Assembly: GCA_027943245.1 (NCBI GenBank)
Contig: JANDJZ010000072.1
Location: 1-64,000 of the forward strand
Source of the DNA: Acanthamoeba sp. SK_2022b
Lineage: Eukaryota > Discosea > Longamoebia > Acanthamoebidae
DNA length: 64,000 nt
Reading direction: 5' to 3'
Shown here: positions 3,407 to 64,000 of the stretch, one piece after another
How the letters are laid out: each line of letters opens with the position of its first letter
Position numbering within the stretch: position 1 is the stretch's first letter
The notes under the pieces: generated by a model
Seen by the model: the letters and a program-made list of their open reading frames with translations, nothing else
Told to the model about the DNA's origin: nothing
The model's database searches: none
Program-made: the position numbers and the translations under genes

Positions 3407-6400
3407 ATGAACCAAAAGAGGATTTTGTTCTCCTCGCTGCTCCTCTTTATGTACTTAACCACTAGAGCTCAAGGTACATACTTCAAAGCTGTGCCATGTG
3501 CCTTCGGGGCTCACACAGGGGTGGTGGGCAGCCGCGATATCCGTGACTGGGGCTGGAGGGCCCTTCGTCGCGCCCCTCATGTCCTACCTCACCGACGCCT
3601 ACCAGGTCCTACTCCTTACAAGCGAGATGGTTACTTGCTACTGTGCTTACCCCGACTTCCCAGTACGTCAGCACAGACGTTTTGCTCTCCTACGACAACC
3701 TTGGCGCTGCGGAAGCCATTCTGAAGTACACAACAACAAACGTCTATGTACGCAATCAGCCGTACATATCATTGTTCCATGCCCAAAATGTCCTGAACGC
3801 GACCGGGGCTACCACAGGACTACATAGTCACCGCCGGCGCAGGCTTGTCGCCGGCCGCAGCGGCGGCGTACGGGATCTCCATACTGCCGTTCATGGGTCA
3901 ACCGTTGGTGCCCATCTACAACCTACCTGAGCTCGACTCAGGCAACAAAACTCTGGTACCCCCCCAAAGCCCAAGCACAGCTCAGGAAAAACCTCGAGCG
4001 AACATGGCGTCGCTCGCGCGTCAGGTGCTGGACGGACCGACCCTGGGGGCAATCTGGGTGGGTGCCATCGTGTGGTGGAACGACACAGCGATCCAGAGCC
4101 TCAACCCGAACGCCACGCTGCCCCAGGCCCGCATACAGCTCGTGCTTTCGAACGATACGCAGGGCAGCATCACCGACCTCTTTGGAGAGGCCCTTTCCCT
4201 GTGGAACTCGGACTTTGCCGCCCTGTGGGCAGTGCCTGTGCAATCCAACGTCTCGTTCGTTAGCAGAGTGCCGGGCATCGCCGACCACGCCACCTATGCT
4301 GGCGCTCCCGGAGCGGCGCAGCCGTTGGCGGTGAAGAGCACGGCGTACAGTCTGAGCTATTCGTCCAAGGCTCTGTCCGACGTTAATGGGGCCAGATATG
4401 CGCGCATGAAGAACAACGCTGGTACTACACCCGTTCTCCGTTGCTGTTTGGCAAGCGTTGCCAGTGGCGTGGTTTTCAACTTTGCTTGACAACGGTCGCA
4501 CAGGAGTGGTGGTCGATCCAACGGTGGCGACCGTGCAGTCGGCCATGAATGAGGTGGTGGGCAAGCTCACGTCCAACTACCTCGGATTGAGCGTGATCAA
4601 CGGCAATCTGTCGACATCATGGCCCGTGTGCCTCACAAACTACATAGTCGTCTACACCTCCATCAATTCCTCGGACTGCAGTTACATGCAGGGCTTGCTT
4701 GCATTCGTCGCGTGGGTGCAGCTCAACTCGCACACCTTCACCCAGGTGCAAAATCTGGGCTACACGCCGATGCCATTCGGATACAAAACGTACGTGAGCG
4801 GCCCACTGCACACTCCAGGTGGGTCTTTCTCACAGCGACTAAAAACGCAGCAAGATGATCGACGTGATGGGGACGATCACGTGCAACGGCGAGCGTGCCT
4901 TTGCCTTGACGTGCCTGGTTGGCGAGGGCCTTGAATTTAACCTCTACAGCTCCTGGATGGACTCTTACCTCTCCTCCAACATCCTGCTGCGCTACTACTC
5001 GAACCCTACGTCGCTGGCCATCTCCGACTTGGCCTGTACTTTCACCTATCTACTCTGAACAGCTATTGCTCCTGTGGTGTCGAGCTGATGGCTAACACAC
5101 TGCATGTGGCGCTCCCAGACAACGTGGATTTTGGTGCCATCAGCACTCCTCTTACCAGCGCCCAGCAGGAGGCCATGCCAGACGTCGTCCAGTTGCCAAT
5201 CATTGCTTACGCTGCTGGACCCGCCTACAACGTACCAGAACCCTCCTTTACTATCAGAGCTTAAAGCTGCGCATCACTCACCTCCACGGGGAGGACGGCG
5301 TGAGAGCAGGTACCGGAACTTCTGGGCAAGGGACGACTGGCGCTCTCTCTCACCACTCTCGCCGACATCATGCTCGGCGTGGTCGACAACTGGAACCACT
5401 CGGCCATTCGCGAGCTCAACCCTTCGCTCGCTGCTCTTCTTCCCAACGCCTCCATCACAGTCGTCACCCCGCTGGGCGCGCCCACAGTGATGCAGCTCTT
5501 CACCGAGGCGCTGAGCCTGGCCAGCCCCGCCTTCCGCGATACGGTACTGCTCTTTCCACTCCCTCCGCGCAACATTGCCGCTGGTGCTGATAGGAGGGTA
5601 TTCACTGGGCAGGTGGGAGTCGGCACTAACCTGCGCATGCCGGTCGATGTGATGGGGCGCAACATCAACACGTCTGACCCTACCACCCTGATCAACAACA
5701 ACACCTACTCGGTCGGTGTGTGGCTCAACGAGCAGATACGACTGCAGCGCAAGTTGGCCATGGCCGACCTCATTAACCCGGCCGGCAATCGCGTGTCTCC
5801 AACCTACAAGTCGCTCCTGTCCGCCATCGACGACTTCAGCACCGATGCTGCCATCGCCAACTTCGTGATGGGACCTGGCGCGGAGAGCTGGCCGATCGCG
5901 ACCTACCACCAGTTCATCGTGCATCAGTCGACGATGGCCGACTGCACAAAGGCGCAGGGCCTGGTGGACTGGATCTACTGGACTCAGACCAGCGCCAACG
6001 CCTTAGACCTGGCTCAAAAGTATGTGTACTCTGTGTGAGCGTCGAGATGAACCTGTCGCGCGCTAATCATTGCATCGCCCTCGACAGGAACTTCCTGGCC
6101 ATCGCCGGCCAGTCCAAACCGATGCGCAGGCGGCTGATCAACTTCGTACAGGGCCTGACGTGCAATGGTGCGCACGTGAGCTCGATCTACACGTGCATCG
6201 TCGACAACACCGTGTGCTCCGACCGCGGCAACTGCGCCGAGGGGACCTGCGTCTGCGACAAGGGATTCGAGGGCGACCACTGCGAAACGACCGTGGCAAC
6301 GTCGACCAGCGACGTGCCTCTGGGGCCCGTCCTGGGCGTGGCCATCCCCCTGGTGGTGGTCTGCCTCGTCGTGGTGGCATGCGTCGGCGCGGCGGTGGTG

Positions 6401-6511
6401 GTCTACTCGACACTGCGCAGGAACAAGGAGGACGACTGGGAGGTGGATGTGACCGAGCAAAGTAGCGCTCGGCATCGTCGACACGCCTTGGGGTGCCCAG
6501 CGCAGATATGA
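3407..6511 (+). CDS. dual solute-binding-domain receptor, 5' half only (kinase part cut off)
   Basis: Begins with signal peptide MNQKRILFSSLLLFMYLTTRA. Spliced exons then give two PstS-like binding domains: domain 1 from about 3531 (GAGGPFVAPLMSYL, then PLVPIYNLPEL and TLGAIWVGAIVWWNDTAI) to about 4740, and domain 2 from about 4850 to 5990. An EGF-like module (6195-6285, six Cys ending GFEGDHC), a membrane span (about 6325-6412) and the juxtamembrane text NKEDDWEVDVTE follow. In the sister receptors that text leads directly into the kinase glycine loop. Here, at 6459, the sequence changes to a PPR-gene fragment and the frame stops at 6511. Introns are GT-AG (for example 3473-3530 and 3738-3820). 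The missing half matches 12363-15140. If transcribed as is, it would encode a membrane-anchored ectodomain without a kinase. Confidence 0.75.
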
Positions 6512-6720
6512 GGGCGCTGAAGCAGTGAGCGTCGGGCACCACGCCCAGCTGGGCCATCTGGGCAAAGTAGCGCTTAGCATCGTCAGGCCGCCCTGCACTG
6601 CCCAGCGCGGCGATGATGGCGCTGAAGCAGGAGGCGCTGGGCACCACGCCCAGCTGGGCCATCTGGGCAAAGTAGCGCTCGGCATCGTCGACACGCCTGG
6701 CGGTGATTAGCGCAGAGAGT
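6460..6720 (-). pseudogene. pentatricopeptide-repeat (PPR) gene fragment
   Basis: On the minus strand the sequence encodes 35-residue PPR units, for example RVDDAERYFAQMAQLGVVP and CFSAIIAALGSAGRPDDAK. The DNA shows an exact 105-base period (aaagtagcgct or its variant at 6460, 6565 and 6670). About two and a half repeats are present, without a start or a stop of their own. PPR proteins normally bind organellar RNA and carry many repeats, so this is a fragment lodged between a truncated receptor and a truncated transporter. Confidence 0.7.
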
Positions 6721-6792
6721 GTGGGCCCAGCCTTCTCTCGCTATCGCTCCACATAAACGCTCACTCTCCCACGCGCGCGCAAAACGCAACAG

Positions 6793-7203
6793 GAGAAGGT
6801 GGTGAACGTGAACATCATCGTCGTGTCGTGGGGCAGCGCGATCGGCAAGCTGATCATCGTGGGCGACGTGCTGCCCAACTACCTGCGGCTGTTCCTGGGC
6901 GTGGACCTGGGCGAGCTGTCCCACTACTACTCCTCCTCCTCCTCGTGGTCACCGGGGCCCGCGGCGTCGGCCTTCCTGACCGAGCGGTGGTTCCTCATCC
7001 TGGCCTTCACCCTGGTCGTCATCCTGCCGCTGGCGCTGGTCAAGAACCTGTCGTCGCTGCGCTACGTGTCGTCGCTGGGCTTCGCCACCATCTTCTTCCT
7101 GCTGTTCATCATCCTCTTCCGCTCGTTCGAGCGCTTCTGCTCTCGGTACGCCCTCTCCCGTGCGCCCTGCCTCCCGTGCGCGCAAGCTCTGACATCATCG
7201 TGT

Positions 7204-7270
<67 letters not shown>

Positions 7271-7918
7271 TGTGTGCGTGTGCGTTGATGGAAGGCGTGT
7301 GCGGCTACTTGTCGTTCCTGGATGCGACGCAGCAGAACATGCTGAACAACTACCCGCTGAGCGACATACTGCTCCAGGCCGCGTCGTTCATCTTCACCAT
7401 CGCCCTCATCACGAGCGTGCCCTTCTTCACCACGCCCTGTCGCACAAGGTAGTGCTCTCCCCCTCCTCCCCCGCCCTCCCTGTTTATGTCCTCCGCAGCC
7501 GCCAAACGCTCACCGCCTCCTGCGCAGTGTGGACTACATGCTCTTTGGCCCGAGCGAAGGCCCGCACGTCTTCCGTGACGTGCTGGAGACGCTGGCCATC
7601 ATCTTCCTCCTCGTCTTCGTGGCCATCGCCGTCCCCAACATCACCACGGTATCTGTCCCCCTGCCTTGACCACACTCGCGCGCGGGAGTGATTCGCATTC
7701 GCTCACACATGTGGACCGACGAGCAGGTGTTTGGTCTGCTGGGCGGAACGTGCGTGATGTTCTGCGGCCACATCGTGCCGGCGCTCACCCACCTCAAGGT
7801 GTCGGGCGCGAGCTGGAAGGACCCCCACACCTACCTCTCGTCGCTCCTCATCACCATCGGCCTCTCCATGGGCGTCATCGGCACCGCGTCCAACCTCTAC
7901 CTCAACTTCCTCCGATGA
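6793..7918 (+). CDS. amino-acid transporter of the SLC38/AAAP family, 5'-truncated
   Basis: Membrane protein of the amino acid/auxin permease type. The first visible exon follows a splice acceptor (cag at 6790-6792) and reads GSAIGKLIIVGDVLPNYL, matching the third span of SLC38 proteins. FLILAFTLVVILPLALVKNL follows. After an intron holding a (GT)n tract (7148-7293) come GYLSFLDATQQNMLNNYP, VDYMLFGPSEG (exon near 7528) and a last exon (7729-7918) with VFGLLGGTCVMFCGHIVPAL. The first two spans and start codon are absent, replaced upstream by the PPR fragment. About 60 residues, including one span, also seem to be missing across the (GT)n intron. It is probably non-functional as read, or mis-assembled. 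Confidence 0.7.
7205..7269 (+). repeat. (GT)n microsatellite in transporter intron
   Basis: About 32 GT units inside the intron between the two transporter exons, at the point where family-conserved residues seem to be missing. Confidence 0.95.
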
Positions 7919-9302
7919 CCCGAGGGTTAACTGCCAAAGTTTTCGGTTGGGTAAAGAACAAGAGTTGCATTTGAATGTTGTTTGTTGTTAAGGGCCGACA
8001 AGTCACTCGCCTCCTCGCGATGGCCTTGGTCGCGGTCACCCTATCGTTGACATCCGCCTGCGGCTCTAAACCGATGACGACGCTGCTTTCGTGGGCTGGT
8101 CGAGCGCGCGTTGGGGCGTGTGGTAGCGAACGCTTGCTGGGCTGGGAGAGCTGGGGGCCGGCCACCTTCACCTGCAGAGAGACAGAAGAAAGAGAGAAAC
8201 GGAGGGGATAGACACACAGAGGATGGCCGAGCCCCAAGCCATCCCCATCTCCGGTAGGACGGAGAACAGAGGCCTGAACTCTCTCAAGTCCTCGCATGCG
8301 CCTGCAGGGGCACCACCTATGTGGCCAGGCAAGTCCTCAGGGAGACCCATGGGGCTGAGGACCGCACACGATGCCGTGGTTCGCACACTGAGGTTGGACA
8401 TGCTCAGAGCAGGTAGTTCTGTGTGCGTGAGAAGACAGAATGGAGAAGAGAGAGCACAACCATATCGCCTCAGAGGGTAACCGCCCACCTCGGTTTAACC
8501 ATGAGTCACGCACAACCAAACACACTAACACACGTAGGCTCGAGGTGGCCTCTGTCCCACAGAAGAAAGCTTGCGGTCACTCTGAAAATGAGAAGGGGGG
8601 GGGAGAAGCAGCCATGTACCTTGCAGGCCCCCCGCAGCTGTTCTCCTTCAGGCCCGGCGGTCGTGCTTGAGTTGGAGGGCATCTGTAATAGAGCCCGAGA
8701 GGTGGTCAATACTTGAAAAGATGAAAGATGTAAGATGAGGTTACCTTTTACTCTTGAAGGGTGGCGCCAACCTTTAGCGTTATGATGCTAAGGTTTCGTG
8801 GGCAAGGGCTCAGTCCAGCCCAGGTACAAGCTCAGTCCACCAGGTCCACGGTCACCTCACTTGCAGCTCGGATGGTGGTAGCGGGACTCGAGGCATAGCT
8901 TATGTAGCACGGTGAGGGAGGTAAGAGGTTCTGCAGGTAGTTTGGTTGTTGGTTGTAGCTGGTGGGTAGAAAAGTGAAGAACTGAGGTCGAAACGGGCGT
9001 TTAAATACCTGCTCGGGGGGGGGGTTCCCTTGCGTTGGCACCGTTCCATTGGAGCATTACATTGCAACCTCACCCAAGAGAGCTCGAGTTTTCCCACGTC
9101 TCCACCAGTCCAAGCCATACTGATCGCTGCACGTGAGCACTCCTGGCCAATGGATCGAAAAAAGGCGTGGCTGTTTCCTTTTCTCAATCTGCGTCGTTCC
9201 GGCGCTTTCCTTCTTTGTCCTTGCCGTGTTTCCCTCTAATTTCTGTTTTGCTTTAGGCCTTTTCTGTGCCCAAACTTTTTGGATATTTATTTGTTTATTT
9301 AT
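7919..9302. other. 1.4-kb gap between convergent genes, no gene recognised
   Basis: Lies between the 3' ends of the transporter (+) and the WDR26 homologue (-). Short ORFs here lack family motifs and splice support. It probably holds the two 3' untranslated regions. Confidence 0.5.
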
Positions 9303-9320
9303 TTATTTATTCAATTTATT
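9287..9320 (-). terminator. AATAAA-rich polyadenylation region of WDR26 homologue
   Basis: On the minus strand, repeated AATAAA/AATAAACAAATAAA motifs overlap and follow the stop codon at 9303-9305. Confidence 0.5.
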
Positions 9321-10983
9321 TACATTCACGCACAAGGTAGGCCAGCCAAGCAACGGCCCAAGGCCGCTCAGTCGTGAAGGCTTGCTGCCCTCCTCGTCCT
9401 GCGCGATGTTCATGGCAGCCACCCCGTCGCTGTCGCAGTCATCGTCTTCCTCATCGCCATCATCATCCTCGTCATCATCGGCCTTCTCCTTCACCTTGAC
9501 CTGCTGCAGCTGGCCGTGACGATCGTGGGCGTGCACCCCGTTGCCTCCTCCACCGACGGCCTTGCCGTTCTCGGTCGCGACGCCCCCGTGCTCGCCCTCG
9601 TGCGCGCCCCGCGCCTTCCTCTTCGTGCCGTGCCTCTTCGGGGCGTGCTCCGACTCCCAGATGCGGATCGTGTGGTCGTCCGAGGCCGCGGCGAGCTGGT
9701 GCGGGTTCTTGGGGTTCCACGCCACCGAGTTGACCGTGCCCGTGTGGCCGGCGAGCGAGTCCAACAGCGTGCCGTGCTCCCGGTTCCATATGTACAGGTT
9801 GTTGTCCTCGCTGCCCGACAGAACGAAGCCCTGGCCCACGCCCCCAAAGCACGACCGAATGACGAAGCGGCTCTGCTTGTGCCCACTGCGCGCATCCCTC
9901 CCCGGAAACCGTTGCGTTGGCTGCAGGCAAATTGCAGTGCAGTGCAGTGGGCGCGACACGTACGTGTACTTCTGGGCCAGCGTACGCGTGTCGAGGTCCC
10001 AGAGGTGGATCTCCGGCGAGGCGAGGTTCACGAGCAGGTATCGACTGTCGTCGGATATCGACAGCGACGTGATCGCCTCCGTCTCGTCGAGGCTACGCAC
10101 ACGTTCATCATCGCGTGAGTAACACGCACACGCACACATAGCGAGCGGGTGGGCGGGGGAGGGAGAGAGAGAGGAGGAGCTGGTACCTCTCCTTCTCCCC
10201 CTTTTGGATGTCGTAGAGTCGAATCCTCTTCTCCTGGGTGATAAGCCACTGGCCGTTGTGACAACGCGAGAGAAACACGAGTGGTCAGAACGCAGCAACG
10301 CAACACTACCGTCGAGACGACGAACACGACGAGCCCGCGGAGAGGGGAGAGGAGCAGAAGGAGACACGTGCCCACATGTAGATCTTCTTGTCCAAGCCGC
10401 CCGACACGAAATGCTTGCCGTCCGGCATCCACGCCAGCGTTGTCACGGCGTTAGTGTGCCTCAGGCAATCCGTAACTTGCTCGCCTGTACCGACGTCGCG
10501 CTTGCGTCAGCAGCAAGCAACCGCGCGCAGCAAATGGGGACAGCAAAGGAGGGAGAGAGAGCTTCGGGGCGTGTACCCGTCTGAGCGTTCCACAACCGCA
10601 CCACGTTGTCCCCGCCCGCCGTGATGAGGTACTCGTCCGTGGGGCTCCACGACAGAAACGACGTCTCCTTGCTGTGGCCCGCCAAGACGTGAAGCGGCTC
10701 CGCCGACTGCGCAACAGAGCGGGGTGAGCCATGTTGACGACGAAGCGCGTCGTGGTTGGGGCGAGTTGGGTTGGGTTGAGCGCAGGACAGAGAGGGGCGC
10801 GCACCCCGTCTTGGACGTTCCAGATGATGGCCGACTTGTCCCGCGAGGCAGAGGCCAGGAACTTGCCGTTGTGGGAGAACTGCACGTACCACACCTCGCC
10901 CGTGTGCGCGGTGAGCACGTGCTTGGTTTTCCGCGGCAGGCGGTCCCTGATCGAGTCGCGATGGGTGATTTGCTGTTAGTGCG

Positions 10984-11045
<62 letters not shown>

Positions 11046-11238
11046 TGACAATGGACGAGGGCCTGCGTGGAGGCGGAGCCGAGCGCGTACAGGGTGCAGG
11101 CGTGGTCCTCCAAGAGGGACAGATCGTCGTACTGCGTGTTGTGGAACTGGCAGTGCGACTTCTGGAACTCCAGCGCTTGAAGAACCAACGTCTCGAGCCT
11201 TTGCGGAGGTGGAAGAGTGCTCGAAGGAATGTATCCTG

Positions 11239-11291
<53 letters not shown>

Positions 11292-11508
11292 GTGTGCGTG
11301 ATGCGTGCGCCGACCAAACGGGACCGACGCGTCAGCACCTGCGCGGGTGAAACGTTTTTTTAAATCACGAGTAGGAGAGGTCTCGGTACTCCTGAGCTTT
11401 TCGAGCAGCTTGGCGCGCGATGAGCCATGCACGCCGTCCCAGTTGGCTCGTTGCTTCAGCTCGCTCGCGTCCGTGAGCATCATCAAGCTGCATCAACGTT
11501 GATTGTTA

Positions 11509-11570
<62 letters not shown>

Positions 11571-11832
11571 CCGGTTCAGCAACGTTGAAGTCGAGAGAGA
11601 GAGGAGATGGGCACAAGAGGGGGGTCTGACCTGCTCAGTCGATGGACGCGGGCGAAGTCCTGCCGGAGGGGCGTCAGCTCCTTTCGCAGACAGTCGAGAG
11701 CGTCGATCGCACGCCCCTGCTCGAGCAGCTCCAGGTACTTTTGCTCATAGAGCAAGAAGAGGACGCTCTGCGCGACGTTCGAGGGGAGATCGGGGGGTGA
11801 GTCCACTTAACTGCTTGACTGTTCATTGCTGG

Positions 11833-11896
<64 letters not shown>

Positions 11897-12361
11897 ACAC
11901 GCACGCACACACGCACACACGCACACACTCACACACAACACGTGTGCGCAAGTTGCTGATGTGGGCGCGTTGGTGTACCGGTACGTCGTCCTCATCAACG
12001 TGCAGTTCGGGAAGGAGGTCCTCCACGGCCTTCCACTCGCCACGGAGGACGCCCTCACAGAAAGTGGTCACGGCCTCGGACTGCAACGACGTGCGCGACT
12101 CCTTGGCTACCATGGCCGCGCTTTGGCTGCCCCCCCCCCAACCACCAAACCATCCGCCGCGGCGATGCAAGTCAGCCGTGTGCTGAAGATCTTGGTTTGC
12201 CGGCAATCCGTCGACGAAGTAGAAAGATGCTTCATCTTTTGTGGGGATAAAAAGATATACGTACTTGAGGCCCAAGTCGCAGAGTGCCTGGATAAGAAGG
12301 CGAACGTAGTCATCCCGCTTGACAAGGGGGTAGGGGGCTTGGGCAGTGCCAGCCGCAACGG
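9303..12361 (-). CDS. WDR26: WDR26-like GID/CTLH ubiquitin-ligase subunit
   Basis: Many-exon minus-strand gene. The N-terminal LisH/CTLH part reads RDDYVRLLIQALCDLGLN, then (after an intron) QSAAMVAKESRTSLQS and EQKYLELLEQGRAIDALDCL. DASELKQRANWDGVHG, YIPSSTLPPPQRLETLVLQA and a seven-bladed WD40 series follow, including HTGEVWYVQFSHNGKFLASA, CFGGVGQGFVLSGSEDNNLY and GHTGTVNSVAWNPKNPHQLA. This order is that of WDR26/Gid7, the substrate-recruiting subunit of the GID/CTLH E3 complex in cytosol and nucleus. The C-terminus has an acidic tail. Introns hold four long (GT/CA)n tracts. No ATG lies in frame upstream of RDDYV, and at about 12361 the sequence changes abruptly to a kinase glycine loop on the other strand, so the 5' end is cut. 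Confidence 0.85.
10985..11044 (+). repeat. (GT)n microsatellite in WDR26 intron
   Basis: About 30 GT units on the plus strand, in an intron of the minus-strand WDR26 gene. Confidence 0.95.
11241..11290 (+). repeat. (GT)n microsatellite in WDR26 intron
   Basis: About 25 GT units. On the minus strand the CA tract is followed within a few bases by the splice acceptor of the YIPSST exon. Confidence 0.95.
11512..11568 (+). repeat. (GT)n microsatellite in WDR26 intron
   Basis: About 28 GT units, between the CTLH exon and the DASELKQRANW exon. Confidence 0.95.
11835..11894 (+). repeat. (CA)n microsatellite in WDR26 intron
   Basis: About 30 CA units, followed by impure CA/GCA sequence to about 11940. 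Orientation is opposite to the three neighbouring tracts. Confidence 0.95.
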
Positions 12362-13557
12362 GGCGCGGGCGGCTACGGCGAGGTGCACAAGGCTGTGTGG
12401 AAGGGCACCGAGGTGGCCGTCAAGATGCTGATCTCGGAGACGGGGTCGCGCGATCTCGAGCGGAATTTCAAGGAAGAGGTGCGACCTCCCTCTTCCAACA
12501 CACATACGCGGGGAGGACTGACCGAAGGATGTGTAGGTGCGAGTGATGACGGCTTTGAGGCATCCCAACGTGGTCCTGTTCATGGCGGCGTGCACCAAGG
12601 CGCCCAAGATGTGCATCGTCATGGAATACATGGCTCTCGGCTCCCTCTATGACGTACAAGATGCCGCCACAACCCTGTCCCGACTCCCATCGCTAACTCC
12701 GTTTCGTGTACATCGTCGATTGTGGTTGTGGTGGGGGCAGTTGCTGCACAACGAACTCATTCCGGACATTCCGTTCGCATTGCGCAACAAGATGGCCTAC
12801 CAGGCCGCCAAGGGCATGCACTTCCTCCACTCGTCGGGCATCGTACACCGCGACCTCAAGTCGCTCAACCTGCTGCTCGACGCCAAGTGGAACGTCAAGG
12901 TGTCCGACTTTGGCCTCACCAAGTTCAAGGAGGAGATGAAGCGCGAGGGCGCCAACAAGGAGATCCAAGGCAGCGTGCACTGGACCGCGCCAGAGATACT
13001 CAACGAAGCCCTCGACGTTGACTTCATGCTGACGGACGTGTACTCGTTCGGCATCATCCTGTGGGAACTCATCACTCGCCAGCAGCCCTACCTCGGTCTC
13101 AGGTACGTACACCCTACCAGCCCGCCCAGTCGCTGCCCTGAACCCACGTGTTAACTTTGCAAACATTGTGTCGAGCAGTCCCGCGGCCGTGGCCGTGGCG
13201 GTGATCAGGGACAACGTGCGCCCGCCGCTGCCCGAGGACAACGCCAGCTGCCCGCCAGAGTTCCTGGAGCTCATTGGCTCGTGCTGGCACCACGACCCGA
13301 CCATTCGCCCGTCCTTCTTGGTGCGTGTCCCCAAACCAATGATAAATGCGCAGAAAAATAAACACTAACAGACGAGCTGGTGGCAGGAGGTGACGCGGCT
13401 GAGTGCGCTGGGCGGAGAGGGTGGCACTTCTTCGCCCACCAGGACCACCACGTCGTCGTCCTCGAGCGCAGGTGGGGCTGATCGGTTCACCTCGTGGACC
13501 GTGCCCACAACCGGCTCTGCGAGCAATGCCAGCACCGGTTCGTCCAGCACTGAAGGT

Positions 13558-13580
13558 ACATCTCTCTCTCTCTCTCTCTC

Positions 13581-13642
<62 letters not shown>
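13558..13642 (+). repeat. (CT)n(GT)n compound microsatellite in receptor intron
   Basis: A CT run (13558-13581) joined to a GT run (13584-13642), just after the splice donor that ends the Ser/Thr-rich linker exon. Confidence 0.9.
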
Positions 13643-13643
<1 letters not shown>

Positions 13644-14372
13644 TTTCGTCCCGAAAGCGTTAGTCGCTCACTGTCTTTCTCTCCACGACGTATAGCACGG
13701 GTCAGCCGCTTCGGCAGCTGCAGGCGTCGCGGGAGGCGTGCGCGCACCAGAGGGCGAGATGGCCATCGTGTTCACGGACATCACGCGGGCCGCCTCGCTC
13801 TGGGAGTTCAACGCCGAGGCCATGCGTGACGCCACGCTCCTCCACAACGATCTGCTCCGGTCGCTGCTGCGCAAGCACCGCGGCTACGAGGTGGTGTTCC
13901 TGCGCGACCGCAACAGCGGAGAGGGTTCATTCTGCCTGGCCTTCCAGGACGTCACCGACGCGGTGGAGTGGTGCATGGAGGCCCAGCACGCGTTGACGCA
14001 CAAGGTCCAGTGGCCCGAAGCGCTGCTTGACCATCCGGGAGCGGCCGAGGAGTGGGCGACAGCGACGAGCGCATCGTGTTCAAGGGCCTGCGCGTGCGCA
14101 TGGGCGTACACTCGGGCCAGCCGCGCATGGTGCGCGATCCGATGACGCGGCGCGTGGAGTACATCGGGCCGGTGGTCAACGCCGCGGCGCGCATCACGGC
14201 CATGACCCACGGCGGCCAGATACTGCTGTCCGAGGCGGCCTTTGCGGAGATCCGGGAGAGCGAGATGGCCAAGGAGGCCATGAGCTCATCGCGTGTCTGG
14301 GCAAGTTCGAGATTCCCGACGCCCAGCGCGGTACCACCTCCCCCCAACAGCATCGCCATTTGATTCGCTCTC

Positions 14373-14375
14373 ACG

Positions 14376-14407
<32 letters not shown>

Positions 14408-14409
14408 GG
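14373..14409 (+). repeat. (CT)n(CA)n tract abutting a splice acceptor
   Basis: The tract runs directly into the acceptor cacag preceding the GAKLYELKPRGLEGRFFGG exon, so it may serve as the polypyrimidine region. Confidence 0.8.
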
Positions 14410-15278
14410 AGCGAAGCTGTACGAACTGAAGCCGAGAGGGCTAGAGGGCCGCTTCTTCGGGGGCATCACGCGGGCCGGCCGCCAGGACTCGGAGCAAAGC
14501 CCGTCGTCGGGCCAGAGCGGCGACGAGGCCAAAACCCCGCGCAGCGTGGGGAGATCAGCGGGCTCCGCCAGCAGCGACGGCGACGACGAGGTGCAGGCGG
14601 TGGTGGGCGAGGGCATGCGCTTCCAGGAGGACAACTTCCTCACCTCGGCCAACCTCTGCCGATGGATCATCGACTTCAACGAGATCGCTCTCGGAAAGCA
14701 GGTGGGCCTGGGGTCATACGGCGTGGTCTACCGGGGCAAGTGGAAGGGCGTCGAAGTGGCGGTGAAGCGATTCATCAAGCAGAAGCTCGACGAGCGACGC
14801 ATGCTCGAGTTCAGGGCCGAGATGGCCTTCCTGGCGGAGCTCCACCACCCCAACATCGTGCTGTTCATCGGGGCGTGCGTCAAGCGGCCCAACCTGTGCA
14901 TCGTGACCGAGTTCGTCAAGCAGGGCAGCCTGCGCGATATGCTGGCCAATACGCAGGGCGTCAAGCTCTCATGGCGCCAGCGCGTCAAGCTGCTGCGGTC
15001 GGCCGCGCTGGGCATCAACTACCTCCACTCACTCCAGCCGGTCATCGTGCACAGGGACCTCAAGCCGTCGGCATGCCGATGCCAAGAAGCGGCCAGCCAT
15101 GGAAGACGTCGTCACTCAGCTCTATGCTCGGCGGGGATGACCACGGAGCTGTGTAATAGGTGCAAATAATAAATGTGATAACAAAACCAGAAAAATCTAG
15201 GTTCGGCCTTTCTGATTTTTGGTTGGTGGTGCAGAGGCAAGAGCAGACTTTTTCAATCGAGTACAGTTAACATCATGA

Positions 15279-15843: not shown

Positions 15844-15848
15844 CGTAT

Positions 15849-15921
15849 AGCCGACCGTGGGGCTCGAACCCACGACCACAAGATTAAGAGTCTTGCGCTC
15901 TACCGACTGAGCTAGGACGGC
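15849..15921 (-). tRNA. tRNA-Lys (anticodon CTT)
   Basis: 73-nt cloverleaf on the minus strand. The D arm is GCTC...GAGC. The anticodon stem CAAGA/TCTTG encloses loop CTCTTAA, giving anticodon CTT. The T arm GTGGG TTCGAGC CCCAC is perfect. The acceptor stem GCCGTCC/GGTCGGC pairs except for one U-U mismatch at the fifth pair. No intron. Confidence 0.93.
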
Positions 15922-16271
15922 CTGCAGTTCACCCGAGGGTACGTGTGGCTCAATGTTGGGGGGGACAACAGGCGCCCACTCGCCAAACAAAAAAGGGTAT
16001 TGGAGGAGAAGGGTATCGATCCCTTTACCTCTATGCTTACTCCGCTACCTCCCTATATGCTATTGTGACAATCAAATTGTGCATATTCCGCCGAACGTCA
16101 ACGCTGCGCCTTTCTGCAAGTTGTCCTAGTGCGAAACGCCGGGACGAGAAGGACGTGTCTACAGCACGTGGTGCCGGTTATGTAAATGCTTGTTCCACAG
16201 CGCGTCCATTTTTCCTTTACACCCGCCAACAAGCCACCGCACCACTCTCACAACTCGGCCGCAGTGCAGTC

Positions 16272-17067: not shown

Positions 17068-20000
17068 TTAGACCAAGATGTGGCGTCCGCTTTCGTGGCT
17101 GCCGCCAGCGCCTCCACCAGCCATAAGGTGGTCCAGCTGTGTGAGGATGTCGTCCATGCTCGGTCGCCGCTTAGCCTCGCCACGCCAGCACTTCTTCATG
17201 AGCTTGCTGAAGCCTGCGGGACAGTCGTTGGGAATCTGGGGGCGCTTGCCCTCGAGCACGTCGAGCGACACGCCCATGAAGTTGCGACCGGCAAAGGGCT
17301 CCTTGCGCGTCACCACCTGCCACATGACGATGCCGAACGAGAACACGTCGGCCCGCTCGTCGTACTTCTCCCCGCGCATGACCTCTGGCGCCGTCCAGCA
17401 CGGCGTGCCGCAACGCGTCATGGTGGCGTTCTCCTCCTTGATGCGCGCGAACCCAAAGTCGGCCACCTTCACGTTCCAGTTCTCGTCCACCAGCAGGTTC
17501 GACGGCTTCACGTCTCGATGCACGATGATTGGGTGAAGTGAGTGGAGGTAGTTGATGCCCAGCGCGGCCGACCGCAGCAGGCCGAGCTTTTGCTGCCAGG
17601 TAAGCTTGATGGAGTGGTCGGCAAGAATGTCCTTGAGGGAGCCCTGCTTCATGAACTCGGTCACGATGCACAGGTTGGGCTTCTTCACGCACGCCCCGAT
17701 GAAGAGCACGATGTTGGGGTGGTGGAGCTCCGACAAGAAGGCCATCTCGGCGCGGAACTCGAGCATGCGTCGCTCGTCGAGCTTCTGCTTGATGAACCGC
17801 TTCACCGCCACCTCGACGCCCTTCCACTTGCCGCGGTAGACCACGCCGTAGGAGCCGAGGCCCACTTGCTTACCCACCTGGATCTCGCCGTAGTCGATGA
17901 TCCATCGGCAGAGGTTGGCCGAGGTGAGGAAGGTGTCCTCCTTGAACATCATGCCCTCGCCCACCGCCTCCTGCAACTCGCTTCCGCCGCTGTCCACGCT
18001 CGAAATCGATCTGTCTCGTTCCTGACGCTGGTCCCCTTGACTGGCCGAGTGGTCGCTCGAGCCCCCTCCGCCACCGGCCATGCGCGTGCGAGCAGGATCG
18101 TTATTGGTGGTGACGCCACCAAAGAACCGGGCCTCGAGTCCCTCCACCTTGAGCTCGTACAGCTTCGAGCCTGTCGCCGCCCAATTGTGAGTCGGCTATC
18201 GCGCGCGCGAGCGGTCGAGAGCTGCGTACCGTTGGGAGAGTCGGGCATCTCGAACTTGCCCAGGCCCACGAACCTCCTCTGTCGGCGCGTTTCTTCGGAG
18301 TCCTTGACCTTGGCAAAGGTGGCCGCGCTCAGCACGATCTGGCCGCCGTGGGTGAGGGCCGTGATGCGCGCCGCGGCGTTGACCACCGGCCCGATGTACT
18401 CCACGCGCCGCGTCATCGGATCGCGCACCACCTTGGGCGACCCCACGTGGACGCCCATGCGCACGCGCAAGCCCTTGAACAGCACCCGGTCGTCCGTGTC
18501 GCCCCGCTCCTCCGCCGCGCCCGGGTGCTCCAGCAGCGCCTCTGGCCAGGCCGCGGTGAGCAGGGCCGTCTGCACGTCGCTGCACCAGGCGAGCGCATCG
18601 GTGGCGTGCTGGAAGGCCATGCAGAAGGAACCCTCGCCGCTGTTCCTGTCCCGCAGGAACACCACCTCGTAGCCGTGGTGCTTCTTGAGGGCATTCCTCA
18701 GCGTGTCGTTGTGGAGGAGGGTGGCGTCGCGCATGGCCGCCGCGTTGAACTCCCACAGCGACGCCGCCCGCGTGATGTCTGTGAACACGATCGTCACCTC
18801 GCCCTCGGGCGCGCGCACGGCTCCGGAGGCTGCCATTGCGTTGACCCGCAAGTGCTTGGACGACGCCTCTGACGACGACGATGAGCCGGTCGACGACGAG
18901 CCCGCCGAGGGAAGCGTCCACGAGCCGCCCATCGCTGGCGTTCTTGGATTCCCGTCCGACGACGACGAGGTCTTGGAGGTGAACGACGTGGCGCCGAGCG
19001 AGGTCGAGTCGCCGTGCATGGAGGAGAGGCGGGTCATGATCTCGAGGAAGGTGGGCCGAATGGTCGGGTCGTGGTGCCAGCAGCTCGTGATAAGCTCCTC
19101 ATACTCGACCGGCCACGCGCCCGAGGTGTTCTCTGGCATCGCTGGCCGCAGGTTGTCGCGGATGACCGACACGGCAACGGCGGCGGGGCTGAGGCCCAGG
19201 TAGGGCTGCTCGCGGGTGAGAAGCTCCCACAGGATGATGCCGAACGAGTACACGTCGGCCAGGATCAGGTCCACGTCGCCCGACTCGTTGAGCACCTCGG
19301 GCGCCGTCCAGTGCACGCTTCCACCAACGCCACCCAGGGCGCCCTTGCTCTTGACGTCCTCCTTGAACTTAGTGAGGCCAAAGTCGGACACCTTGACGTT
19401 CCACTTGGCGTCGAGCAGCAGGTTGAGCGACTTGAGGTCGCGGTGCACGATGCCCGACGAGTGGAGGAAGTGCATGCCCTTGGAGGCCTGGTAGGCCATC
19501 TTGGCCTTGAGCGCGAACGGGATCTCCGGAATGAGCTCGTTGTGCAGCAACTGCACGGTTGCAACATTGAGGGAGAGTGAGCAAGGCCGGCTGCGCGGCA
19601 AGGAGTGCAAAGTCAGTCCCTACCTCGTAGAGGGAGCCGAGGGACATGAACTCCATGACGATGCACATCTTGGGCGCCTTGGTCGACGCCGCCATGAACA
19701 GCACCACGTTCGGGTGACGCAGCGCCGTCATCACTCGCACCTGCCACGTGACATGCCGTGTGAGCCTTTGGCGCTTCACAAAGCAGGTGACCGGTCAGGC
19801 AAGAAGGAGCGGAGGCGAGGGGAGAACCTCGTCCTTGAAGCTCTTCTCCATCTCTTTGGTGATCCGATCCGAGGCCATCACCTTGACCGCTACCTCGGTG
19901 CCCTTCCACACCGCGCGGTGGACTTCGCCGAAGCCGCCGGTGCCGAGGTGCTCGCCCACGTCGAGCTCATCGTACCGGATTTCCCAGTCGTCCTTGGACT

Positions 20001-23000
20001 GCCGGCTGTGCTTCCTCCAGTACAGCGCAAGCATCACAATCATGGCCAGCAGCAATACCGCGAGCACAGCTGCCACTGGAAGCGTGACTCCTAGGTTGAG
20101 GGGTCACGCCACATGTCGATGAGTCGAATTCACCAATTGCTTCACCAAGCAACGAGTAATGTGTGGAGTCGGTACCGAGAATGACCGGAAGGTTTTCCGA
20201 CACGGAGGAGGAGGAGCTGAGATCCTCGCAATAAATGCCCGTCCGGCCGGACGAGCACACGCAGGCGCCGTTGACACAGGCCCCAGCATCGCCACACAGC
20301 TGTCCCGCCGGAGAAATGCAGCCGTGCAGCGCGCTCACCGGTTCGCCGTCGCAAGTGAACGCGCGCAGGGAGAGAAGGAACTTGGTCATGAGCGTGTCGG
20401 CGGAGGTGGCCAGCACGTAGCCCTGCCTATCGACGATTCGCTGTGCCTGGGTGGCGAACTGGGTCCAGTTGAAGAAGTCGGCCAGCGCGGACGCAGCGCC
20501 ACAGTTGCTCATGCTGGTCTGCCGATAGATGACCGACGCGAAAGTGGCCAGCGGCCAGCTTCCTGCTCCCGTTCCTGGGGAAGAGGGCAATGCTTGTGTG
20601 AGTTGCCGGACGTAAAGGAGTGAAGATTGAGGTGGGGGATAACAGCACGCACCCAATATGAGGGAGTGATAGGTGAGCTCGGTCCTGGATGCGCTGAAGT
20701 CGTCCACCGCGCTCTTCACGCTTGTAACAGACGCGGCCACCACGGACCCGTCCTGCTTCTTGATCGACGCCACGCCGAGGGTGCGGGCCTGTACATGACC
20801 GAGCGCCAACCACCGGTAAGCGTTGAGCCCTGTGCTGGTGGCGAGCACCACTAACCGATTATGGGGCGAGTGAGGTCACCTGTTGGAGCTGCTGTAGTAA
20901 CCAGATGCTGAAAGAGTACGACGTGTCCTTCACGAGAGTTGCCACGCTGTCCGAGTCGGTCGTGCTGATGGTCCGGTTCGAATCCGCCGACACAGGGTAC
21001 ACCACAGACTGGCCCACGCCGACCTATTTGCTCGATGGTGAGTTACCAGTAATCACGTGAATCGGAAGGAGAGTGTAACCTGTTCGGCAAAAGCCGTCAC
21101 GGTGGCGTTCAGCATGTAAGTGAGCAACTGAGTGAGGGCGGAGTCGCCGTCAAGCAAGACCACCACGATGGGCTTCGCGGGCAGCAACGCCGCAACAGCG
21201 TCGGAGTTGAGGCTTTTGATCTTTGGATCGTCCCAGGTTTGAATCGTGTTGAGGTAGATACCGGCGATCGTCTCATAGTCGAGGATGAGGGTCTCGTCGC
21301 CCAGCTCCGGAATGTTGTACCCTACGAGGCGTGAGCACGCCAGCGGTGAGTGCCAGCGTAAGCGCAGCTGATGAAGGAGAAAGTACCTGGAGCAATAGCC
21401 AAGGCAGCAACGGGGATGATGTCGGCATCTTCGACGAGCTCGTACCAGCCGTCAGACAGCGCGTTGATGGAAACGCCAAAGTCTTCGTTATCCTGCACCA
21501 GCAGCTGCTTGGCGACGGCCGACGTGTTTTGATAGTATTTCATGTCGGTGTCCTGGCTTGACCACGACGCCGGCCACGAGGAGAACAGCGTGAGAGGCGG
21601 GCCGACGCCAATCAGGGTCGAGGTGGGATAGGCCTGCTCGCCGTTGCACTGCACGGTGCCCAACAGTTCGAGAAGCTTCTTACGCAGGCTGATGTCCATG
21701 GGTGCCACGTAGGCTTCCTCAGCCACGACCGAGGCTCTGAATGGCAGCACGAGATTAGGAGACTGTGCAGGGGGGGGGCGTGAACGCTGACAGCTCGGTC
21801 GAGGGTAAGCATACTCGTCGTTGGTCTGAATCCAGGCCACAAATCGAAGCACCTCCTCGACCTGAGTGCAGTCAAATGAAGTCACGTTCCCATTCATGGT
21901 GAAGAAGGCCATGTAGGCCATGGGCCACGAGTCGGTGCCATTGGCGTCGAGTATGTCCACGGTGAACAGCCCTTGGTCGTAGTCGCTCAGAAAGTCTGGG
22001 TGGAGCACCACGATGAGCAAAAAAAAAGCCCACGATGGAAAGGCCGAGGGAATGCACCGGTCATCGCAGACTGGACCGAGGCTACAGAGGGCTCAACTAA
22101 TGTGCCGGCTTTGTTGATCATGTTGGCCCAGGGCACCACGCCCACCGCTTCGGGAATGCTGAGGAAGGTCATGCCATACTGGTTCGCCTACAATGAGGAG
22201 TGTTAGCACGGCACACCACACTGGCTCAAACGAGCGGAGATCAACGCACTTGTAGCCAACCGAGCCTTTGTGTGGTGGTATTTCCTGCGTCCACGGCACG
22301 CCCAGCCAGCGCGGGCGGCATTTGACCAAATTCCCGATTGGCGGCAGTCGACACGGCTTTAAAGTCGGCGCTGAAACTCTCGAGCGAAAGCTTGAACACT
22401 TCCACCAGCGAAATGGAGATGTCCTCGCCGTATCCCAGCAGGATCGAGGCGTCGGGCAGTCGGGCAGAGATGTTCTGGTTGAGGTCCAAGATGCGTTGGT
22501 CCCTCCATTGTGTGATATTGCCGGCCCAGATCAGGCCCAACGTATCCCGGTCCAGCACCTTTGCACGAGCGTGAGCTTAGCCATTTGTCCTCGCAGGCCA
22601 GCGATGTGCAAACAATAGAGAAGAAGAAGAAGAAGACCCTACCAGGTTGGTGTAATTGGTGGCATTGAAGCCGGGCAAGTTGTAGGCAACGATGAGGGCA
22701 TTTCCGACCAGCGGGAACACAGTGAGGTTTCTGGCCTCTTCGGAGTCAGATACTATGCCCCTGTCCAAGCACAAAAAGTCCTACCGGTAGAAGATCGATC
22801 GTAAATAATCGGTCATAAACGACTCCCCGATGGGCTGACAGGCAAGACGCACCACAGTGCCGGCGAGGTACGACTCTATCGAGGGGATCACGTCGGCAGA
22901 GGAGTATTGAACGCTGTACATGGAGAGGCGTGAGCAAGCGCAAGAAAGAAGCGAGGCGCGAGGCCCAGAGAATGAAGACGTACCTGACGTCGTCCCGAGT

Positions 23001-23261
23001 GAACAAGTACGATCGAGCCCATGAGCTGAAGGCCCCATATGTGCTGGAGCTGCCAGCGCCCTCGATTTGCACGCCAAAGGCAGCGCCTACTGCATGTTGG
23101 TTAACCGTTCCTTGATGAGGGCCATCGTCCTTTTATTGGGGCTCAGCACGCATGGGTGATGAAGGGTGTGTACCTGGAGTTACAGAGGCAAGGCTAAGAG
23201 CGATAAGGCCCAACAGGAGGTATGACGCCAGACGAGAACGCGCAAGTGGTAGTGTAAGCAT
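17068..23261 (-). CDS. dual solute-binding-domain / EGF / kinase / cyclase / kinase receptor (complete copy)
   Basis: Complete minus-strand gene of roughly 1700 codons. ATG at 23261 opens a signal peptide (MLTLPLARSRLASYLLLGL). PstS-like domain 1 (about 23100-21810) has GAGSSSTYGAFSSW, PLVGNALIVAYNLPGF, TLGLIWAGNITQWRDQRI and SWPMAYMAFFT. Domain 2 (about 21720-20430) has YNIPELGDE, IAGIYLNTIQTWDD and SWPLATF. An EGF-like module (about 20300-20215) and a membrane span (about 20090-20030) follow. Kinase 1 (19975-19040) has GTGGFGEV, VAVKVM, HRDLKSLNLLLD and SDFGLTKF. The class III cyclase-like domain (18820-18240) has VFTDITRAASLWEF and VVNAAARITALTHGGQI. Kinase 2 (17875-17100) has GLGSYGVVY, HRDVKPSNLLVD and ADFGFARI. 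No frame break was found, so this is the reference copy. The likely role is sensing an extracellular solute; the ligand is unknown. Confidence 0.88.
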
Positions 23262-34800: not shown

Positions 34801-35008
34801 CTTTGCCGGTCGCAACTTCATGGGCGTGTCGCTCGACGTGCTCGAGGGCAAGCGCCCCCAGATTCCCAGCGACTGCCCCGGCGAGTTCCGCAAATTGATG
34901 AAGAAGTGTTGGCACTCCTCGCCCGACAAGCGCCCGAAGATGGAGGACGTGCTGGCGCTCTTTGAGCGGTTCATCAACGACGATGCCACCGGAGATGTCG
35001 CCGTGTGA
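28841..35008 (+). CDS. dual solute-binding-domain / EGF / kinase / cyclase / kinase receptor (third copy)
   Basis: Same architecture as the gene at 17068-23261. Signal peptide MQSAWPVILLGALLALIG. PstS-like domain 1 (about 28980-30205) has PLAGQAMALGYNVPAFN, TVGLIWAGNISTWNDSRI and SWPITYLTFFS. Domain 2 (about 30330-31440) has IAGILLNNITTWNDERI. An EGF-like module (31640-31730; CVCGSGREGDHC) and a membrane span (31840-31910) follow, then kinase 1 (31955-32975; GTGGFGEVY, HRDLKSLNLLLD), the cyclase-like domain (33170-33820; VFTDITRAASLWEF) and kinase 2 (34150-34975; GLGSYGVVY, HRDLKPSNLLVD, ADFGFARI). It has two introns that the minus-strand copy lacks (33492-33564 in the cyclase, 34333-34400 in kinase 2). 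In exon 2, near 29024, alignment to the sister copies needs a one-base frame change to reach the conserved RDDV exon end; otherwise it looks intact. Confidence 0.85.
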
Positions 35009-54429: not shown

Positions 54430-54495
<66 letters not shown>

Positions 54496-57231: not shown

Positions 57232-57240
57232 GAGTGCAAG

Positions 57241-60011
<2,771 letters not shown>

Positions 60012-60385: not shown

Positions 60386-63300
60386 ATGGCCGTCAGCCGC
60401 GTGGCAACCGTTGGTTTTGCCTTTGCGCTTCTCGTGATCTTCTGCATAGGCCATGGTACGCCCTCTTCGGACAGTATCTAATCAATCAATTGCCAATTTT
60501 TTTTTAACAAGTGAAGCTCACCGCTCTGACAAGAAGCAGGTGCTACCTCGGGCGTACAACTCTATGGCGCCGGCAGCCCCAACACCCAGTCCGTCCTCTC
60601 CTCCTGGACCAATTCCTACCTCTACTACCGTGATGATGTGAGGTGCGTGGTCGTTGAGCCTTCCTTTACCTGGATTTTCCTTTCTCGAATGGGCTAGGTG
60701 CAACCGTTGGGGTAGTTTTTGATAGAATAATTAATGTCCTGCTCACCAATTGTTTGTCGTGTGTGTTAGCATCTCATACGACCCGAGCGGGGTGGCGGCG
60801 TCGCTGGAGTCTTACGCCGAAGGAGACGTGGTACGCCTCGTGCTGCGGGGAAGCGAGCTTCAGCGCCTTTGCCGAGAGCCACCCTTTTCGGAATTACCCT
60901 GTCGCTGGGTTGGCCTTGGAAAGGGCGCTCTAAATCGGGATCCCGCTTTCGCTTGCTCCGTGACGTGGCGGGGGTGGGTTTCAGGACTTTGTCTGTTTGG
61001 ACAGGGGACTGAGCGACCAGACCTCCAACCTGGTACAATTTCCGCTTGCAGGACAAGCCCTGGTGATGGCCTACAACATTCCGGAGCTAAACGCGACTGA
61101 CCCCAACCTGGTACGTTTCATCTTCCCTCGGCCCAGGCATGAGTAGTCCGAGCTAACATGCGTATCAATGGGTTGCTCTCTCGCCTTTCTTCTGTCATTT
61201 TGCAGGTCATCGAGAGGGACACGTTGGGTTTGATCTGGTCCGGCGCCATCACTAAGTGGAATGACGACCGCATCAAGGTGCACAACGAGGCGATCGCCAG
61301 CAAGCTGCCGGATAAGCTCATCACGATCGGATACCGCGACGACGACTTCCGCACCATCACTGAAGTCATCAAGCTTGCGCTAGAGAGCTTCAGCGACGAC
61401 TTCCGCTTGGCGCTGGCGGCGGCCAACCACAGCTTTGCAAACCTTAACATCAAAGGCGAGGACGCCGGTGCTTCTACGGCCCTCCGAATCCAATGGCTCA
61501 AGGTGCCGTCCGCCCACTACGAAGCCTCTGCCTCAACCGTAGTTGACCAGGCTGACCTTTCTCTCTCTCTCTCTCTTCGAATGTTACAGCAAACCAGCTA
61601 CGGTCTCACCTTCCTCAACTTTGCCGATGCGTATGACAGCGGTGTCGCGTGGATGAACATGTACAACAAAGCGGGTACACTGGTTACCCCTTCCATCGCT
61701 TCCGTCCAGTCCTCCATGGCGGATTACATCGAGGAGTATTCGCAGCACAACTTCACGGTGGACATCTACGACTCCAACGGCGCCGCCTCGTGGCCGATAT
61801 CCTACATGACCTTCTTCTCAATGCGCAAGAACATCACCACGTTCGACTGCACCAACGTTCAGGAACTGCTCCAGTTCATTGCCTGGGTCCACACCAACGA
61901 CGAGTAAGAGCCCCCGCTCTCGTTCATGCAGTGTTCTAGTCCACAAACCCTCACATGTGACTGGGCAGGGTGTCAAACGCGGCCCAGCGCATCAACGTGG
62001 CTCCGCTCGATCTGACCCTCAGGAAACGCCTGATCGACCTCCTGTCTGAAGTACAGTGCAACGGCGAGGAGGCATTCGCCTCCGAATTCCTCATCGGCAT
62101 CGGCACCCCACTGCCCGTGTTCCCGGCGTGGGCCAACGCGTGGAGCTCGTCTAACAGAAAGGCCAAATACTACGACGCTGCGTCGCTGCAGGCCAAGGAG
62201 GACCTGGTCACCTACACGGAGGACTTTGGTGTGACCAGCAACGGCATGGATCAGTCCTACTACGACCGCATGCCCGACGTCGCGCTCTTCCCCGCCACCT
62301 TCTTTGCCCTCGTTCCCGGTAAGTGAACCCGCCTCTGTTTGGGCCCTGGTGACCTGTCTCAATTTCTGATGACCCAATCTATCGCCGTACGTGCGGTGAT
62401 GGCTGCAGCATTCAACGTCCCCGAGCTCAAGGGAATGACGTTAGTGCTCGACTTTGACACCATTTCGGGCATCTATCTCAACGAAATTAAGATGTGGTCC
62501 GATCAGCGAATCAAGGACATCAACTCGCCAGAGGTGGCCGCCGCGCTGCCTGACCAGAATATCATCGTGGTGATTCACGAGGTCCAATCGGCCTACACGC
62601 AGCTCTTCACCACCATGCTCTCAACCATGGTGCCGGAGTTCAACGTCACGGTGAGTTTTTTTCGCCCACCTTAACTCACACAAACACTCACTCACCATTG
62701 CCTCCATACACCCGCTGGTTTAGATCGGTGTCAGCCTTCGCCCGAAGTTCCCCGTGCAACTCGTGCCCAACAGGACTGTCTCTACGGCGGTGGTCAACGG
62801 CCCGGGGTTTCTTCTTGACGCGACGCCCTACTCGTTCGCCTTTTGGCAGCTGCACGATGTGTTGCTGGTACGGGCGCAACTGCCTGCAAGCCCCCAGCGC
62901 CGATCGCTCGTTTCCTAACCTGGCTCTTTAGCTCCGCAATCTCGATGCCGCGTCGATGTACAACAAAGCCGGCAATGTGGTGGCGGCTACCACAGCTACT
63001 GTTACTAGCGCGCTCACCGATTACATGAACACCGCGACTACGTTGGACTACACCGGCATTGTTCTCGGTTGGACACAATTCTCCACCAATGATAACTGAT
63101 TTCTTTTTCGTCTAATCCCATAACTCGCCACTCCCAAACGCAGCCCCCAGCAGCGACAGCTGGCCCATTGCAACTTTCGGCTCGATGATCTATCGCTCCC
63201 AGACCATGGACGACTGTTTCAAGGCTTCCGCACTGGCGGACTTCATCATATGGACGCAGACCGACGCGAACGCCCTCAAGATTGCCGAGAGGTAAGCCTT

Positions 63301-64000
63301 GGGCTTCTCCCCCTGGCACCCTCCGATCCCGATCGGGCGGTGCTGAGACTGATCCTCTCTGCAGGCAAGGATTCGTCGTGGCATCGAGTGTCGACGTCAT
63401 CTACAGAGAGGGACTGAACCAGATCAAGAAGTTCACGTGCGAGGGCGAGCCCGTGAGCGCGCTGTACGGCTGCATCTGGGACGGCCAGCTGTGCTCTGGT
63501 GCTGGCACCTGCACCAATGGCGTCTGCAATTGCGAGAAGGGTCGCGAGGGCCTGTACTGCCAGGATTTCACTTCATCAAGCAGCTCCGACTCCATCGTCG
63601 TCCTGCTCGGTAGCCTCCCACCTCTCCCGGGGCTCTGTGACACAATCCCGCTGATACGTGTTTGGAAACATCTCTATTCTCTCATTCAGCCACGATCATT
63701 CCGGTGGCCGCTGTCGTCTTCTGTCTGCTGGTGCTGTTCATCTGCCTTCTGGTGTGGATTATCAGACGCAAGAACAACCAGAGCGATGACTGGGAAATCG
63801 ATTACGACGAGCTCGAGGTGGGTGAGCATCTCGGCTCGGGCGGTTACGGCGAAGTGCACAAGGCCCTGTGGAAGGGCACCGAGGTGGCCGTCAAGGTCAT
63901 GGCCTCCGACCGTATCACCAAAGAAATGGAGAAAAGCTTCAAGGACGAGGTTCGTGCCCTAGTAGCCTCACTCGCGACATACTGGCGGGGTCCACTCACT
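60386..64000 (+). CDS. dual solute-binding-domain receptor kinase (fourth copy), cut by window end
   Basis: Signal peptide MAVSRVATVGFAFALLVIF. PstS-like domain 1 (60541-61905) has YGAGSPNTQSVLSSW, PLAGQALVMAYNIPEL, TLGLIWSGAITKWNDDRI, MYNKAGTLVTPSIASVQSS and SWPISYMTFFS. Domain 2 (about 62030-63280) has FNVPELKGM, ISGIYLNEIKMWSDQRI, MYNKAGNVV and SWPIATFGSMIY. An EGF-like module (63465-63565; CNCEKGREGLYC), a membrane span (63692-63765; a long V/L/I/C run before IIRRKNN) and the start of kinase 1 (GSGGYGEVHKAL, TEVAVKVMASDRITKEM) follow. The reading frame is sound across the visible part; cyclase and kinase 2 should lie beyond 64000. Its SDDWEIDYDELEVGEHLG stretch shows what is missing between the split halves at 6459 and 12363. 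Confidence 0.88.

Follow-up and report, generated by a model that had tools for sequence, protein, structure and literature searches.

Tandem PstS-type domains without the phosphate pocket in a family of Acanthamoeba receptor-like kinases carrying an altered cyclase-like domain

A 64,000-nucleotide stretch of contig JANDJZ010000072.1 from Acanthamoeba sp. SK_2022b (hereafter, the window) contains four copies of a putative receptor gene, numbered 1 to 4, whose predicted product runs from a hydrophobic N-terminus through two PstS-fold domains (D1 and D2), an EGF-like module and a membrane helix to a kinase, a class III cyclase-like domain and a second kinase. Bacterial PstS is the nearest known family of the ectodomain by both sequence and fold, and its phosphate pocket has been lost from the receptor domains; the kinases retain their catalytic residues, those of the cyclase-like domain are altered, and the entire architecture recurs in giant viruses. 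The family itself was already known; as far as the literature searched extends, what is new is the identity of the ectodomain, the loss of its pocket and the change at the cyclase site. With modest confidence, we read these proteins as single-pass receptors that would recognize something other than phosphate bound in the manner of PstS, use the cyclase fold as a dimer hub and signal through their kinases. A tandem PstS fold without the phosphate pocket would thereby give a concrete identity to the ectodomain of a large amoeba receptor family.

The tandem PstS-type ectodomain and its pocket

Gene models were derived from a six-frame reading and a purpose-written small gene finder; they are predictions, and small exons of the ectodomain were probably missed in places. 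Copies 2, 3 and 4 are modeled as intron-rich genes of roughly 1,500-1,650 codons each, and Pfam and NCBIfam matches support the order of domains, bearing out for 17068-23261 (minus strand), 28841-35008 (plus strand) and 60386 onward (plus strand) the order given in a preliminary description of this DNA. In the copy 4 model, Pfam recognizes PBP_like_2 (1.6e-12), two PK_Tyr_Ser-Thr domains and Guanylate_cyc (9.6e-12), and NCBIfam recognizes the PstS family TIGR00975 (1.1e-52) in two stretches. The EGF-like module falls below the Pfam cut-off in copies 2 (E 0.0023) and 4 (E 0.083) and above it in copy 1 (EGF_2, 3.8e-05), and a single membrane helix lies 3' of this module in every window copy. Hydrophobic N-termini are present in the models of copies 3 and 4; that of copy 2, the end of which is cut short by its gene model, was read by eye in the open frame.

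Copy 2 (17068-23261, minus strand, 18 predicted exons) comprises D1 at 21650-23066, D2 at 20325-21648, the EGF-like module at 20225-20320, the membrane helix at 20020-20191 with one predicted intron inside, kinase 1 at 19040-19974, the cyclase-like domain in one exon at 18228-18812 (motif NSGEGSFC at 18622-18644) and kinase 2 at 17068-17886. In copy 3 (28841-35008, plus strand), D2 starts at about 30320, the EGF-like module at 31639, the helix at 31849, kinase 1 at 31951, the cyclase-like domain at 33163 and kinase 2 at 34142. Both genes had been described as complete, which stands for copy 2 and is uncertain for copy 3, because its reading frame shifts near 29035, within D1. Copy 4 (60386-64000, plus strand) presents its ectodomain, the helix (63594) and the start of kinase 1 (63803) before crossing the window edge, as had been proposed; its remainder was found on the same contig (C870; locus L009), with the cyclase motif at 65190-65212 and kinase 2 extending to about 66650. 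The predicted exons of copies 2, 3 and 4 are continuous and their viral relatives are single proteins, supporting a single ectodomain-kinase gene in each case and leaving a division into separate genes unsupported.

The structural match to PstS anticipated for both halves of the ectodomain was obtained for D1, using a fold model of the metagenomic relative P0004 and match lists covering this domain only, whereas a PstS-type fold is suggested for D2 by sequence and predicted strands. Phosphate coordination in PstS involves eight residues (T10, F11, S38, D56, R135, S139, G140 and T141). Across 44 domains from 22 proteins, Arg135 is present in one domain, the Ser-Gly-Thr loop in none, and the T10-F11 positions align to a gap in all, with the same losses in additional host models. 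In the same alignment, two complete PstS proteins serving as controls keep eight of eight pocket residues and seven of eight (Ser replacing T10), respectively. On these residues, both receptor domains have lost the phosphate pocket.

Two full-length single PstS genes, L032 (C315:131881-134001) and L033 (C736:26438-28455), lie on contigs 283 kb and 38 kb long, are intronless, encode bacterial-type signal peptides and keep eight and seven of the eight phosphate residues; they are probably bacterial contamination of the assembly. The single-domain relatives among the six matches of copy 4 D2 (P0019-P0022 read) are ordinary PstS proteins and indicate nothing firm about a donor, and a scan of prokaryotes returned 24 pattern matches, none of which was confirmed as a relative.

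Intact kinases and the altered cyclase-like domain

Kinases 1 and 2 retain the VAVK Lys, HRD and DFG residues expected of active enzymes, including both kinases of copy 2, with the exception of kinase 2 of copy 1, which has no DFG. The domain between them adopts the class III catalytic fold, and its nearest cyclase structures are trypanosome receptor adenylyl cyclases. We surveyed its residues in 40 rows, of which 24 are from the host (20 loci in contig order minus L013, plus L030, L031 and copies 2, 3 and 4) and 16 are viral (14) or metagenomic (2). The canonical K-x-x-G-D, containing the purine-selecting Lys and the second metal Asp, is found in none of the 40 rows. Arg or Lys occupies the position of the Lys, and Glu that of the Asp, only when the additional residues are positioned following the HMMER alignment to Ma1120, which sets R-N-S-G-E-G over K-S-Q-G-D-G; for GRESAG the gap is placed otherwise, and the motif loop is one of two stretches that the structure model predicts with least certainty (block mean predicted local distance difference test, pLDDT, of 62). 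GDG was seen in two cedratvirus rows. The transition-state Asn and Arg are both present in 17 of 24 host rows, compared to one of 16 viral or metagenomic rows, and several host side clades lack one or the other. Loci L013 (C110) and L038 (C709) define a divergent side clade with the motif RGNSEGSMC, in which the Asn/Arg region is lost.

An ordinary active cyclase was demoted to a less likely reading. A more elaborate alternative holds that these proteins are true receptor nucleotidyl cyclases with a modified site (Lys to Arg, second metal Asp to Glu with one extra residue, and base-selecting Asp to Glu) and regulatory kinases, as in trypanosome and animal receptor cyclases. The trypanosome structural neighbors, the Ma1120 alignment and the Asn-Arg pair of most host rows are in line with such an enzyme; we nonetheless judge it unlikely, given the missing canonical motif, the host side clades without Asn or Arg, the absence of the pair from 15 of 16 viral or metagenomic rows although the kinases persist, and an Ma1120 register that shifts with the reference in a poorly modeled loop. 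Viral copies with both kinases but without the catalytic Asn and Arg serve as a natural experiment in which the two functions, kinase and cyclase, come apart.

The family in the genome and in giant viruses

The genome has 57 occurrences of the motif N[ST]GEG[ST]FC, and a backward-read control has none. Merging these occurrences with 68 PF00211 matches yielded 76 loci, and three further cyclase-like loci (L030, L031 and L051) bring the family to at least 79. A same-strand PstS match lies no more than 6.5 kb upstream in 56 of the 76, a lower bound, as copy 3 is among the 20 loci without one despite plain PstS domains in its model. Gene models were produced for 26 of the at least 79 loci (20 in contig order, L030, L031, copies 2-4 and the 3' half of copy 1); 24 contain both PstS domains, the exceptions being L021, at a contig end, and the copy 1 half, and 18 match the EGF cysteine pattern. 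The tandem PstS ectodomain thus looks general in the family, as far as these 26 loci represent it. In the kinase-cyclase-kinase part, copies 2, 3 and 4 are mutually 79-82% identical, and the nearest relative of copy 4 is L012, on another contig, at 83%. The window therefore holds four loci of a genome-wide family, not a four-gene family, and the recent expansion initially suggested is not upheld as a local event.

Among weak PF00211 matches, the one without motif or nearby PstS by eye (C478:72796), a candidate cyclase outside the family, proved to be a member. All or almost all of the ectodomain lies in a single open frame in C232, C299, C934, C51, C708, C275 and C1116, as in P0002 and P0004, compared to about a dozen introns there in the window copies. 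C572, C1084, C101 and C140 score nearly equally against the query and look like recent duplicates of each other.

Full-length relatives were found in mimi-, cedrat-, medusa- and pandoraviruses by two protein searches. The named viral members among P0001-P0018 are Mimivirus, Megavirus, Moumouvirus, Cotonvirus, Niemeyer, Cedratvirus, Medusavirus and Pandoravirus, and a library of viral models holds more pandoravirus and megavirus entries. Among metagenomic relatives, P0013 and P0017 are full-length, and the frames of P0002 and P0004 end inside kinase 1. The ectodomains of Cotonvirus and Saudi moumouvirus share 37-38% identity with that of copy 4, and the Pandoravirus one shares 29%. No relative was confirmed in IMG/VR when P0003 and A1 served as queries; these scans were insensitive, since such viruses are known from other databases. 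In a tree of 40 rows, mimivirus-like and cedratvirus sequences form a 13-row clade (100/100), medusavirus groups with P0017 (100/100), and Pandoravirus is a long unplaced branch. This tree is unrooted, its Cedratvirus IHUMI row is cropped too short, L020 and Pandoravirus stand on very long branches, and it includes neither L013 nor copy 1. It does not resolve viral monophyly or give the direction of host-virus transfer, and a topology test did not reject a single viral clade (approximately unbiased test, p-AU 0.594).

Copy 1 had been described as split, and its halves do lie 5.9 kb apart. The 5' half (3407-6456, plus strand) contains D1, D2 (from about 4882; PBP_like_2, 2.1e-12), the EGF-like module (6194-6290) and the helix (6341-6403), with TIGR00975 stretches at 4001-4429, 5325-5540 and 5601-6026, and stops after the juxtamembrane DDWEVDV. 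The 3' half (about 12356-15155, plus strand) contains kinase 1, the cyclase-like domain (motif at 13912-13934) and kinase 2. The damage goes beyond a split: kinase 2 is without everything between HRDLKPS and KRPAMEDV, and hence without DFG. In relatives, the same two flanks are 38 bp (C17) or 31 bp (C499, C1115 and C346) apart. Identity between the copy 1 flanks and C17 and C499 is 75-83%. Neither flank has a near-identical counterpart other than copy 1 itself, so the break could be either a true rearrangement or a join made in assembly.

The intervening stretch (6457-12355) contains a PPR-repeat frame (minus strand), a multi-span transporter-like frame identified by eye (plus strand) and a WD40 frame (minus strand). 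Three 105-nt (35-residue) PPR repeats (6457-6716, minus strand) begin at the break, and several extended (GT)n/(CA)n tracts at 7190-11909 are possible recombination or assembly-join sites. Outside the receptors, where the domain scan covered 7 frames of the window, a tRNA-Lys (CTT) at 15848-15922 (minus strand) separates copies 1 and 2, and an open frame with calponin-homology and C2 domains (26889-28382, plus strand) lies just upstream of copy 3.

Proposed mechanism and comparison with known systems

In the single-pass receptor reading, the protein would have a type I topology, with two clamshell (PstS-fold) domains held outside on an EGF-like stalk. The clamshells would engage a partner molecule or some ligand that is not phosphate held in the PstS manner; this contact would alter the packing of a receptor dimer, and the single helix would relay the change to kinase 1. 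The class III cyclase fold dimerizes in known relatives, and here it would join two chains so that kinases 1 and 2 could act on one another as well as on substrates, protein phosphorylation being the main output. Some turnover of a nucleotide at the changed site might persist in the host core clade; viral copies have probably lost this activity.

Several observations weigh against this reading. Dimerization is borrowed by analogy from known class III cyclases, and the fold model represents P0004 rather than a window copy, with fold lists for D1 only. Host cyclase activity is not excluded, because Asn, Arg and metal Asp 1 are all present in 17 of 24 host rows, which have a Glu near the second metal place. 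Furthermore, some anion binding by the ectodomain is possible, because 19 of 22 proteins carry an acidic residue in D1 at PstS position 56, and D2 mostly keeps Ser38 (19 of 22) and Ser139 (21 of 22).

Alternatively, the PstS folds might be protein- or glycan-binding surfaces without a small ligand, the receptors recognizing prey, self or virus and the family size reflecting recognition diversity. The diversity of at least 79 loci, the relatives carried by four groups of amoeba viruses and D1 pocket columns less conserved than the domain average (0.31 versus 0.42; 22 rows, mostly viral) suit this proposal, which we regard as improbable on balance: D2 pocket columns match their domain average (0.40 versus 0.39, same rows), and no partner is known. 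More doubtful still is the direct nutrient sensing of the preliminary description, in which PstS domains would capture phosphate the way bacterial PstS does and link its binding to the kinases and cyclase; kinship to PstS and the kept acid and serines speak for it, and it was rejected as the main reading on the near-absence of the remaining pocket residues from domains aligned alongside controls that keep them. A viral origin with later amplification in the host is likewise very unlikely, since the full architecture in four giant-virus groups and the unrejected single viral clade are set against more numerous, intron-rich host copies, a cyclase site better kept in hosts and a tree whose root is not placed.

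Returning to the receptor with a dimer hub and kinase output, a broader scenario can be offered more tentatively: a eukaryote may have acquired bacterial PstS, doubled it and stripped it of phosphate chemistry, yielding the ectodomain of at least 70 receptor kinases; the cyclase, recognizable by R-N-S-G-E-G-S-F-C, may have become a hub with no cyclase activity (or with a changed nucleotide); and giant viruses may carry the whole receptor as a cyclase-independent kinase, presumably rewiring host sensing.

Compared with bacterial PstS, the receptor domains share fold and sequence family and differ in lacking the phosphate loop and Arg and in standing in tandem on a receptor. The giant-virus receptor-like kinases share the whole architecture, including the PstS-type ectodomain and EGF-like module; in contrast to the window copies, with their many introns, the viral proteins are uninterrupted, and the Asn-Arg pair is kept in one of the 16 viral or metagenomic rows. 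The closest published systems are the amoebozoan cyclase kinases. The excerpted text of PMC4053784 (Clarke 2013) reports 67 A. castellanii cyclases with an ectodomain, one helix and a cyclase between two kinases, a layout shared by giant viruses, alongside 35 G-protein-coupled receptors and 48 histidine kinases; that of PMC4758236 counts 66 'cyclase kinases' in A. castellanii and 43 in Physarum. Layout, giant-virus occurrence and family size are thus alike. The excerpts differ in the identity of the ectodomain, termed just 'extracellular receptor domain' in PMC4053784 and not named as PstS in the portions seen of PMC4053784, PMC4758236, PMC12724359 and PMC3429862, and, in the excerpts of PMC4053784 and PMC4758236, in making no mention of an altered cyclase site. 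The altered motif puts the nucleotidyl cyclase annotation of these 66-67 genes in question. The AcrA homolog described in PMC4758236 was not turned up by our search, from which we claim no absence.

Trypanosoma brucei GRESAG 4.1 and 4.3 provide the closest cyclase structures, with a Lys and second metal Asp that are replaced in the amoeba family; to our knowledge, GRESAG receptor cyclases have no flanking kinases. Animal receptor guanylyl cyclases (GC-A type) likewise present a binding-protein-like ectodomain, one helix, and a kinase-like followed by a cyclase domain, with a class I binding-protein fold outside, a pseudokinase inside and no second kinase. The working design is similar; the ectodomains are not kin, and the amoeba family is not a member of this group.
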